From IMG/VR virus record IMGVR_UViG_3300044701_002547, positions 41,676 through 105,675 of that record: a DNA stretch of 64,000 nt; one strand, given 5' to 3'. Source of the DNA: a virus. The notes under the pieces were generated by a model, which searched no databases, was not told the DNA's origin, and saw nothing but the letters and a program-made list of their open reading frames with translations. Shown one piece after another: positions 27,383 through 63,125 of the stretch (positions are counted from its first letter, which is position 1; each line of letters starts with the position of its first letter). Both the position numbers and the translations under genes were made by a program.

Positions 27383-27454
27383 GGGACTGTCGCCTATTGG
27401 TTAAGGCCCACTGCTTATAACGGTGTGAACTGTGTTCAATTCACAGCAGTCCTA
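27383..27454 (+). tRNA. tRNA-Ile(UAU)
   Basis: A full cloverleaf can be drawn: acceptor GGGACTG/CAGTCCT, D stem GCCT/AGGC, anticodon stem CACTG/CGGTG with loop CTTATAA (anticodon TAT at 27416-27418, U33 and A37 present) and T arm CTGTG-TTCAATT-CACAG. CCA is not encoded. UAU reads AUA directly; most bacteria use a lysidine-modified CAU tRNA instead, so this is unusual. Confidence 0.85.
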
Positions 27455-27458
27455 CCTT

Positions 27459-27531
27459 GCTGGTTTAGCAATCTGGCGAATGCAATCGACTCATAATCGA
27501 TGGGAGGCGAGTTCGATCCTCGCAACCAGCA
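27459..27531 (+). tRNA. tRNA with CAU anticodon (Met or Ile2)
   Basis: The acceptor GCTGGTT/AACCAGC is perfect. D stem GCA/TGC, anticodon stem ATCGA/TCGAT with loop CTCATAA (anticodon CAT at 27492-27494) and T stem GCGAG/CTCGC complete the cloverleaf. The paired first acceptor base argues against an initiator tRNA. Sequence alone does not separate elongator Met from lysidine-type Ile. Confidence 0.9.
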
Positions 27532-27532
27532 C

Positions 27533-27561
27533 TTGACCACTACAACTCTATGAGTTATAAT
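27533..27561 (+). promoter_or_regulatory. Promoter for tRNA-Leu
   Basis: TTGACC (27533-27538) and TATAAT (27556-27561) have 17 bp between them. Transcription would begin a few bases before the mature 5' end of tRNA-Leu at 27572, giving it an independent promoter just after the CAU tRNA. Confidence 0.7.
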
Positions 27562-27571
27562 GGTCTCACAA

Positions 27572-27852
27572 GCGAGTATGGTGGAATCGGTAGACACACC
27601 AGACTTATGAAAATTGAGCCTCATTTAGGAAACTTTATGAGTGTAATTCCTCAAATTCGGTGAAACCTGTAAAATGGCAATACCGAGCCAAGCATCGTAA
27701 GATGAAGGTGTAGAGACTAGACGGGGAACACCTAAACCGAAAGGTATGGTGAAGGTATAGTCCAGACCACAAACCGAAAGGGTAGTGAAAACTATAGTGG
27801 TAAGAAAATCTGTTGGGCATTGCCCGTGGGAGTTCAAGTCTCCCTACTCGCA
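27572..27852 (+). tRNA. tRNA-Leu(UAA) interrupted by a group I intron
   Basis: Exon 1 is 27572-27606 and exon 2 is 27805-27852. Joined, they give acceptor GCGAGTA/TACTCGC, a D arm, anticodon loop C-TTAA-AAA type (anticodon TAA split after its T), a long class II variable arm (GGGC-ATT-GCCC) and T arm GGGAG-TTCAAGT-CTCCC. The first anticodon-stem pair is a C/U mismatch. The split between T34 and A35 is exactly the position used by the ancient cyanobacterial and plastid tRNA-Leu intron. The tRNA reads UUA, a common codon in this AT-rich genome. Confidence 0.9.
27607..27804 (+). ncRNA. Group I intron in tRNA-Leu(UAA), 198 nt
   Basis: The segment has the core of the cyanobacterial tRNA-Leu intron: AATTGAGCCT near the 5' end, GGTGAAACCT (P), AATACCGAGCCAAGC (Q), AAGGTGTAGAGACTAGACGG (R), GGTATAGTCC (S) and a terminal G before AAAATC of exon 2. 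The U at the end of exon 1 fits the U:G splice-site pair. It is shorter than the roughly 230-330 nt I remember for cyanobacterial copies and has no ORF. Self-splicing is expected but not shown. Confidence 0.88.
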
Positions 27853-59717: not shown

Positions 59718-60455
59718 TTATCCAAAGAACCAGTAATATCCTCTCCAACTAAACCGACCAGGATTCTTAAGACTCTTCACAATACCTGTACCTTTTCCTT
59801 TTTCACTTAATTCACGCACTGCTGCTGCTATACTTTCGAACCGAACTTCAATTAGTTCGGTTTTTTTATTGACACCGAATACTGATTTCTTTTTACTCTT
59901 CTCTTCCATAATCTGCCATTTATGACCATATGCTGTTCCACCAGTTCTAGCAGCAAGTAGTATGTTAGCATTTCTACCAGGATCGCCAGTAATCTCTTTT
60001 GCTGCTATTCTTGCATTCTCATAATCAGTACAGATACCAGTCACTAAGTTCTTACTTCTAATCTTGAGTCCGCAGTGCTTACCATTTCCCCTGTTTTCTT
60101 CTGTTAGAGAACCCCAAGATTTGTATTCCGATTTAAGTTTAATTATTTTGGGTTCAGGTTTAGGTATGGGTATAGGAGTTACATTCTCAATTAGTTCATT
60201 ATATTCAGGTTGATGTTGATCTATCCAATATAATTCTTTATCATTCAATAAACGTTCATCACATTCATCTATCTCTTTAATCATAAAGTTATTATTACCA
60301 TACTTTCTCATCGCACGGTGTAATGGTTTTGAAGACATTTTCAGTGCTTCTTGTATGTGTTGCTGCCACTGTTTGTTCATTCCCTGAGTGGTCTGCCCAA
60401 CGTATTTGTGCCCGTTTTGTTTATTGAGAATGAGATAGATGATTCCTTGTGCCAT
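59718..60455 (-). CDS. GIY-YIG homing endonuclease (SegA-like)
   Basis: This 245-aa protein has the nuclease core GIIYLILNKQNGHKYVGQTT, QWQQHIQEALK and KYGNNNFMIKEI, then NUMOD-type DNA-binding parts (SKNLVTGICTDYENARIAAK, RFESIAAAVRELSEKGKGTG). It is the only minus-strand gene in the 36-64 kb part, which suggests insertion. The DNA on its 5' side is gene-poor and repetitive. Confidence 0.87.
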   Translation of the reverse strand: MAQGIIYLILNKQNGHKYVGQTTQGMNKQWQQHIQEALKMSSKPLHRAMRKYGNNNFMIKEIDECDERLLNDKELYWIDQHQPEYNELIENVTPIPIPKPEPKIIKLKSEYKSWGSLTEENRGNGKHCGLKIRSKNLVTGICTDYENARIAAKEITGDPGRNANILLAARTGGTAYGHKWQIMEEKSKKKSVFGVNKKTELIEVRFESIAAAVRELSEKGKGTGIVKSLKNPGRFSWRGYYWFFG

Positions 60456-61931: not shown

Positions 61932-62135
61932 ATGACTACCTTTCTCACCAAAGCACAGCGCCAGATCTTGATTGATTGGTATATTGACTGCCTGATTGAA
62001 ACTGAGTCTGAGTTTGTTGATGGAAGTGAAGAAGCAGAGCGTCAAAGTTTGGCGTCGATGAATAACTCTTACTTCTATGAGTATGTTCAGGAGATGATGC
62101 CTAACTGTATGCAAGATCTTGCAAAAATGAAATAG
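61932..62135 (+). CDS. Small hypothetical protein, 67 aa
   Basis: MTTFLTKAQRQILIDWYIDC, FYEYVQEMMPNCMQDLAKMK. The FLTK start is shared with the product at 54430. Helical. Function unknown. Confidence 0.6.
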   Translation: MTTFLTKAQRQILIDWYIDCLIETESEFVDGSEEAERQSLASMNNSYFYEYVQEMMPNCMQDLAKMK

Positions 62136-62137
62136 GG

Positions 62138-62197
62138 TGTGACACTCTGAGAACTGGCACAGACCCCCTTGTGCCCCGCCTGAATCCCTGTTATCTT
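62138..62197 (+). promoter_or_regulatory. Operator promoter module M (ArdA-like gene)
   Basis: TGTGACACT left, GAACTGGCACA (ending 62161) right. -35 TTGTGC (62169), 17 bp, TATCTT (62192-62197). Unlike the others it is followed by a long structured leader. Confidence 0.78.
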
Positions 62198-62204
62198 AGT
62201 TTCA

Positions 62205-62282
62205 GGTTGAGGGGGGCAATAAGACCACCCCGCTGCCGCCCTACGGGTCCACTGGGCATTCGCCTGGCAGCAAACCTCAACC
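62205..62282 (+). ncRNA. Structured RNA leader (pseudoknot-like)
   Basis: GGTTGAGG (62205-62212), at the predicted transcript start, pairs with CCTCAACC (62275-62282). Inside are GGGG/CCCC (62213/62228), GCTGCC/GGCAGC (62232/62266), GCCC/GGGC and a possible GACC-GGTC pseudoknot (62223/62246). The compact closed fold and the AATAAGACCACCCC segment recall manA/wcaG-type RNAs known from cyanophages, from memory only. Confidence 0.6.
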
Positions 62283-62312
62283 TTTCCAACATTCTTTCCC
62301 GAGACCCTACCG

Positions 62313-62729
62313 ATGAGCGTTACCTTGACCGTGAACTACAAAGAAGTCTTCGCTGCTCAAACTGTAGAAAAGATTGATGAATTGCTGGAAGACAACTATG
62401 CCATCGATGACATTCTGGAGTTCATTGATGCTCGTAATGAGGAGGATTTCGTTGCCTTCTATGAAGAGTACGTGACTCAAGGTGAGAATCTGGGTTATGA
62501 TGTTGTGGATGCATTCGTAGAGTATCACGGGATTTCTTACGTAGAGCACACTGGAGATGCCTATCGTGGGCATTATGATTCGGGTGCTGACTTTGCCGAA
62601 GAATACTATAGTGATGTCTATGGTGATGTTCCTTCGTTCCTTGTTGTAGATTGGGAAGCAACTTGGAATCAGAGTCTCTATTATGACTTTGATTTCGTAG
62701 ATGGTTATGTGTTCAGTAGTAGTTTCTAG
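62313..62729 (+). CDS. ArdA-like antirestriction protein
   Basis: This 138-aa, strongly acidic protein has FVEYHGISYVEHTGDAYRGH, YDSGADFAEEYYSDVYGDVP and FLVVDWEATWNQSLYYDFDF, VDGYVFSSSF. That order matches ArdA-type domains (AYxGxYxSxEDFAEE ... WE ... GYVF). The usual N-terminal ArdA subdomain is replaced by an unrelated helical part (VEKIDELLEDNYAIDDILEF). ArdA mimics DNA and inhibits type I restriction. It sits behind module M and a structured leader. Confidence 0.7.
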   Translation: MSVTLTVNYKEVFAAQTVEKIDELLEDNYAIDDILEFIDARNEEDFVAFYEEYVTQGENLGYDVVDAFVEYHGISYVEHTGDAYRGHYDSGADFAEEYYSDVYGDVPSFLVVDWEATWNQSLYYDFDFVDGYVFSSSF

Positions 62730-62880
62730 TCTAGATCTACACACTATCATACAGATCTCGTCGAGACCTACACACATCTCGACGAGATCATCACATCATC
62801 ATACATCAATCTAGTGCATATGTCAACTAGATACACACATCTAGATCATCACATATACATCTAGATTGCATATATAATAC
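62728..62880. repeat. Second array of TCTAGA/CTCGACGAGA-type repeats
   Basis: After the ArdA-like stop there are CTAGTCTAGATC, AGATCTCGTCGAGACC, ATCTCGACGAGATC, CAACTAGATAC, ACATCTAGATC and ACATCTAGATT. They resemble the array at 60826 and alternate with ACACA or CATCA spacers. Confidence 0.65.
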
Positions 62881-63125
62881 AACATATATGATGTGCGAGA
62901 GTTCATCCTATCTCTGGTAAACAAAATAGGACATAATACATACGTGACGAGTAAGAATAAAAAAATACAGGACGATTCCTGATAGAATAATTTATTTTAA
63001 TTCTATCACTTAGGAATCATATTATTGTGCCTAAGATTCTTATAATAACTCTAAGAGCTTATATTATTATCTTCAACGGGAACAAACCTAGTCTAATGGG
63101 TATTTTAAATATTGTCAAGCCCCAT
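62881..63125. other. Gene-free AT-rich stretch with a long hairpin
   Basis: No gene seen. GATTCC-TGATAGAAT (62974-62988) and ATTCTATCA-CTTA-GGAATC (63000-63018) form a 15-bp stem with a small bulge. No T-run follows directly, so it is not a standard terminator. The rest is featureless AT-rich DNA. Confidence 0.6.

Follow-up and report, generated by a model that had tools for sequence, protein, structure and literature searches.

The window considered here (the whole stretch of DNA that was analyzed, 64,000 nucleotides (nt) of the 105,675-base virus record IMGVR_UViG_3300044701_002547, a T4-like cyanophage by its similarity to Synechococcus phages such as S-SRM01) contains a compact RNA at 62204–62283 (+) that, going by sequence comparison, is a new, previously undescribed family of cis-acting messenger RNA (mRNA) leader in cyanophages. 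It consists of a closing stem of 9 base pairs (bp), P1, around a hairpin P2 and a branched arm P3/P4/P5, and it stands ahead of a gene for an ArdA-like anti-restriction protein. The closing stem is predicted to lock up the message's very first letter, probably for the protection or control of the message, and the reading that we tentatively favor, at a probability of roughly 0.4, is a 5'-end-sealing leader that would block 5'-end-dependent decay and carry a recognition loop, a function that we infer. The family adds an undescribed, strongly covarying structured RNA to the small set of cyanophage leaders without an assigned function.

Compensatory change and the RNA family

Judged by compensatory change, the element is a real RNA family. 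In an alignment of 17 distinct sequences, pairing is preserved in 98.5% of pair cells and 16 of the 27 pairs show two-sided changes, whereas control structures slid by 1–3 columns are only 31–53% paired with 0–3 such pairs, and it is from this difference that we draw the conclusion; the covariation score is 0.454 vs. 0.196 in shuffles. Fitting the alignment to the model biases it toward the structure, yet covariation extends to all six pairs of P3 and the alignment required few gaps. The pairs that fail lie mainly in P1 of two chimeric copies in one contig (L041, discussed below). G·U cells outnumber A·C cells by 42 to 2 in the family alignment, so that it is the + strand that is under selection as RNA. 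The elements of the fold in the window are as follows.

62204–62212, + strand: P1 5' strand; its first base is the predicted transcription start A62204; covariation includes the outermost pair
62213–62231, + strand: P2 hairpin, 4 bp (62213–62216 with 62228–62231) and the 11-nt loop CAAUAAGACCA at 62217–62227
62232–62237, + strand: P3 5' strand, pairing with 62266–62271; two-sided changes in 6 of 6 pairs among homologues
62238–62248, + strand: P4 hairpin GCCC-UAC-GGGU (62238–62241 with 62245–62248); two-sided changes in 3 of 4 pairs
62254–62265, + strand: P5 hairpin GGGC-AUUC-GCCU (62254–62257 with 62262–62265); two-sided changes in 2 of 4 pairs
62266–62271, + strand: P3 3' strand; covariation
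62275–62283, + strand: P1 3' strand; covariation

An earlier, sequence-only reading of this DNA had placed a structured RNA at 62205–62282, and both folding energy and covariation find it there: these positions alone fold at −36.8 kcal/mol (z = −2.67), with an equally good folding in 1 of 200 shuffles. That reading had itself named a lack of covariation among homologues as the outcome that would speak against the feature, and the two-sided changes in 16 of 27 pairs went the other way. Its enclosing stem of 8 bp is present and becomes 9 bp long once A62204-U62283 is added, and the further stems that it saw inside correspond to P2, P3, and P4/P5. Its possible pseudoknot is not supported, since covariation calls for no second pairing and the single candidate, in which GACC of the P2 loop would pair with GGUC in P4, relies on P4 bases that vary among the homologues. 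We also considered an alternative 5' pairing, GGUGGU with ACCACC, which is present in clade 2 only.

The ArdA-like protein encoded downstream has 28 relatives in IMG/VR, and among those with a readable leader, one contig alone carries the element directly before the ardA relative, identical over the element. A covariance model built from the window sequence alone was searched over the records of the ArdA-like relatives and picked up a divergent copy from a second phage (48.4 bits, E 3.6e-10), likewise upstream of an ArdA-like gene, with compensatory changes throughout and a P2 loop that is nearly unchanged. Enlarged by pattern scans and then by covariance-model searches, the family now holds 30 copies in 29 phage contigs, one per contig except for the two in L041; they fall into two clades with 66% identity between them. 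Model scores below about 40 bits were disregarded because the best bacterial match, at 35.7 bits in L091 (Polynucleobacter), lies antisense inside a glycosyltransferase-like gene and is a chance match. A scan of bacterial and archaeal genomes with the P2 pattern gave six matches, of which 0 were cyanobacterial. DNA similarity over 50,697 phage records, and the new contigs brought in by a relaxed P2 pattern, yielded chance matches only, as did model R2 on 12 named cyanophage genomes, with a best score of 15.1 bits. There is no detectable membership in any of the 4227 Rfam families, weak matches included, and the element is so far known solely from uncultured phage contigs.

The unpaired bases are conserved to an unusual degree. 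Ten of the 11 positions of the P2 loop, CANUAAGACCA, are invariant and the eleventh is A, G, or C; the G·U pair of P5 is invariant (17/17), as are the A and U of its ANUN loop, the AA of the junction before P1 (J3/1), and the U before P5. Because several scans demanded the P2 loop, part of this invariance reflects data selection; in two scans anchored on the 3' half, the model-confirmed copies all had the same P2 loop. Such invariance of 10 of 11 bases implies a specific binding or tertiary role for the loop. An upstream peptide read through the loop (GCA NTA AGA CCA) was rejected: the sole variable base falls at a first codon position while third positions are invariant, and the clade 2 frame stops after about nine codons.

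Predicted transcript start and paired 5' end

Transcription is predicted, from the position of the −10 box, to start on the first base of P1. The promoter was read as follows.

62169–62174, + strand: −35 hexamer TTGTGC, 17 nt upstream of TATCTT, part of a putative promoter of weak consensus
62192–62197, + strand: −10 hexamer TATCTT, ending 6 nt before A62204, the first P1 base

This promoter matches the consensus at 8 of 12 positions, which is why a generic promoter scan missed it. Every copy of the family has a −10 hexamer (TATCTT, TATATT, TATTCT, TATTGT, TACAAT, or TATACT) that is separated from the start of P1 by exactly six bases, although the copies have nine different −10/discriminator sequences. 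The outermost P1 pair itself covaries (GC 10, AU 4, GU 1). Taken with the fixed spacing, this suggests that the transcripts begin inside a blunt stem, in keeping with the earlier proposal that the message starts at the first arm of the stem. The predicted 5' bases are sealed in every copy but the two L041 chimeras. In the window element the first four bases are unpaired with an average probability of about 0.06, compared with 0.68 over 12 other modules. As in known 5'-terminal stem-loop stabilizers, few or no unpaired bases would thus precede the stem if the start is placed correctly. The contrast in leader length that had been pointed out also stands, with 109 nt from predicted start to ATG here vs. 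mostly 11–25 nt (two of 51–54) in other window modules.

Two other stems near predicted transcript starts were observed. At ~2885 on the reverse strand of L040, the predicted start coincides with a different hairpin of 8 bp, GGGTGGGA-GGAGCAAG-TCCCACTC, preceded by a promoter that resembles the one the element has in this phage. In L021 (~2940), a further ardA relative has in its leader an unrelated stem, GGAGTCGG...CCGACACTCC, near the predicted transcript start.

A leader that would seal the message end, and its rivals

In the end-sealing reading, RNA polymerase would start on the first P1 base and leave the 5' triphosphate end in a blunt 9-bp stem. That stem would deny a free single-stranded end to the 5' sensor of RNase E, to the 5'-3' exonuclease RNase J, and to the pyrophosphate remover, so that the message could be kept alive while the ribosome site stays open. 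The invariant P2 and P5 loops may be where a protein or a small ligand docks, or where the RNA packs against itself in its tertiary fold, with P1 held or released as a result. In E. coli, an mRNA whose 5' terminus is base-paired is protected from RNase E and RppH (PMC3997798). Both RNase E and RNase J occur in cyanobacteria; RNase J, which is present in every sequenced cyanobacterium and apparently essential, attacks non-triphosphorylated 5' ends (PMC10989914). A cyanophage has been reported to shield its own transcripts from RNase E, and keeping phage messages safe from this enzyme is a well-known theme of cyanophage infection (PMC9692554). It is the combination of an autonomous 5' domain, the published protection by 5' pairing, and the presence of RNase E and RNase J in cyanobacteria that leads us to favor this reading. 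The earlier suggestion of a stability element thus fits best among those made, inasmuch as every intact copy has its first nucleotides in base pairs; the stabilization would be the deduced part of it.

Several points weigh against sealing as the whole explanation. RppH homologues are reported to be absent from cyanobacteria (PMC10989914), and the start site is deduced from the −10 box. A plain hairpin would suffice to seal an end; the strongly conserved loop and three-branched core ask for more, and a single copy per contig (two in one) is odd for a general stabilizer. Other cyanophage promoters that we examined show no general excess of stems at +1. Since the stem starts exactly at the predicted first nucleotide in every copy, the family offers a sharp, testable prediction on how phage mRNA escapes decay in cyanobacteria. 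A more far-reaching proposal, possible but in our judgment doubtful, is that phages have an RNA-made "5' cap," an autonomous fold set exactly at +1 that can move between unrelated phage genes. In hosts that possess RNase E as well as the 5' exonuclease RNase J, it would protect early messages and perhaps, by means of the invariant loop, conditionally unlock them.

What lies after the element bears on both the sealing leader and its rivals.

62284–62312, + strand: remainder of the leader, unstructured, 29 nt to the ATG, including the standard module leader (ACATTCTTTCCCGAG...)
62313–62729, + strand: gene for the ArdA-like anti-restriction protein, 138 amino acids (phrog_36653 anti-restriction, E 1.9e-33)

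The 138-residue protein itself has no match to Pfam ArdA, and two of its relatives have weak, sub-threshold ones. In L052 and L113 the gene after the element encodes an ArdA-like protein with an extra N-terminal domain (MLTGSNLLNKVNEM...), which we take to resemble cyanobacterial AbrB, although Pfam did not confirm this for L052. The link to ardA applies to part of the family: several copies precede ArdA-like genes and other copies precede unrelated ones. The first genes after the copies belong to at least six unrelated families, the small proteins other than ArdA beginning MITDVFHY, MTVATLPV, MTEASLVP, MTYTPIQS, MRYNPSTD, and MNLQDWND. Such variety is as expected for a general leader.

It is less readily reconciled with a riboswitch or protein-binding operator, in which the P2 and P5 loops and the WAA junction would bind a metabolite or a phage or host protein and switch the downstream gene, for those genes have no common family. 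The conserved fold and highly conserved unpaired bases (10 of 11 in the P2 loop, the AA of J3/1, the ANUN of P5), the position in the 5' untranslated region (UTR), and the single copy in nearly all contigs are what one would look for in such an element. An expression platform was not found: there is no terminator-like site in 62100–62800 and no long U run after the element, and in every member tested the ribosome-binding site is almost as accessible with the element as without it. These results favor an autonomous 5' domain over a classical riboswitch platform, and we consider a switch of this kind, which the earlier reading had also suggested, unlikely, if still a serious competitor.

The first ~80 nt could instead be a stable, trans-acting non-coding RNA such as a decoy, transcribed from a dedicated promoter, with the downstream gene incidental. 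An own promoter, a precise predicted 5' end, the invariant loop, one copy per contig, and changing downstream genes would suit it. We nevertheless judge it improbable, as the terminator is missing and an ATG follows P1 by 13–37 nt in all copies except one chimeric L041 copy, which would not be expected of a free RNA.

An antiterminator, whose nascent fold would bind RNA polymerase and allow read-through of later stem-loops, seems to us still harder to credit. The put RNA of phage HK022 acts in this way, and like the element it is a structured RNA near a phage transcript start. The element is transcribed first, and phage modules have inverted repeats between genes. Against this, many downstream modules have their own promoter.

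Least probable, in our view, is an element acting as DNA, that is, a cassette for recombination comparable to the PeSLs of T4-type phages, in which the fold would be a by-product. L041 carries, on its reverse strand at ~2662 and ~3068, two copies 406 nt apart that are reciprocal clade 1/clade 2 chimeras flanking a truncated ardA. This arrangement suggests a small circle inserted by one crossover in the shared core, or else an assembly join, as it is seen in one contig. The copies recall the PeSL cassettes (cited in PMC4503421), whose recombination is described for T4-like phages. An early-type promoter and an attached stem structure are common to both, and the L041 chimeras may be a sign of recombination between copies as well. 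PeSL stems, in contrast, are intrinsic terminators beside an early promoter, whereas the fold here lies downstream of its promoter, has neither terminator nor U run, and is conserved as RNA, its G·U-biased compensatory changes showing selection at that level.

Known leaders and other features of the window

Membership in the manA or wcaG motifs, which had been raised, is not supported, as an Rfam search at E ≤ 10 of window 62100–62400 and two homologues gave chance matches only and neither manA (RF01745) nor wcaG (RF01761). Like the element, these two are structured 5'-UTR RNAs of T4-like cyanophages, found also in marine bacteria and of unknown function (PMC2864571). They precede sugar and photosynthesis genes, which were not seen directly after the element. 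The ompA and papA leaders, 5'-terminal stem-loop stabilizers of E. coli, likewise hold the 5' end in a stem before an unstructured ribosome site (PMC3997798); the element differs from them in being three-branched and phage-borne, in its near-invariant 11-nt loop, and in being paired from the predicted +1.

After the ArdA-like gene, at 62730–62960, the window is non-coding and has many short repeated and palindromic motifs resembling TCTAGATC/ATCTCGACGAGA. Elsewhere, 27383–27786 holds two transfer RNA genes and, immediately after them, a match to a group I intron (Rfam). At 59718–60455 (−) an open reading frame of 245 amino acids encodes what, from its N-terminus, we presume to be a GIY-YIG homing endonuclease.
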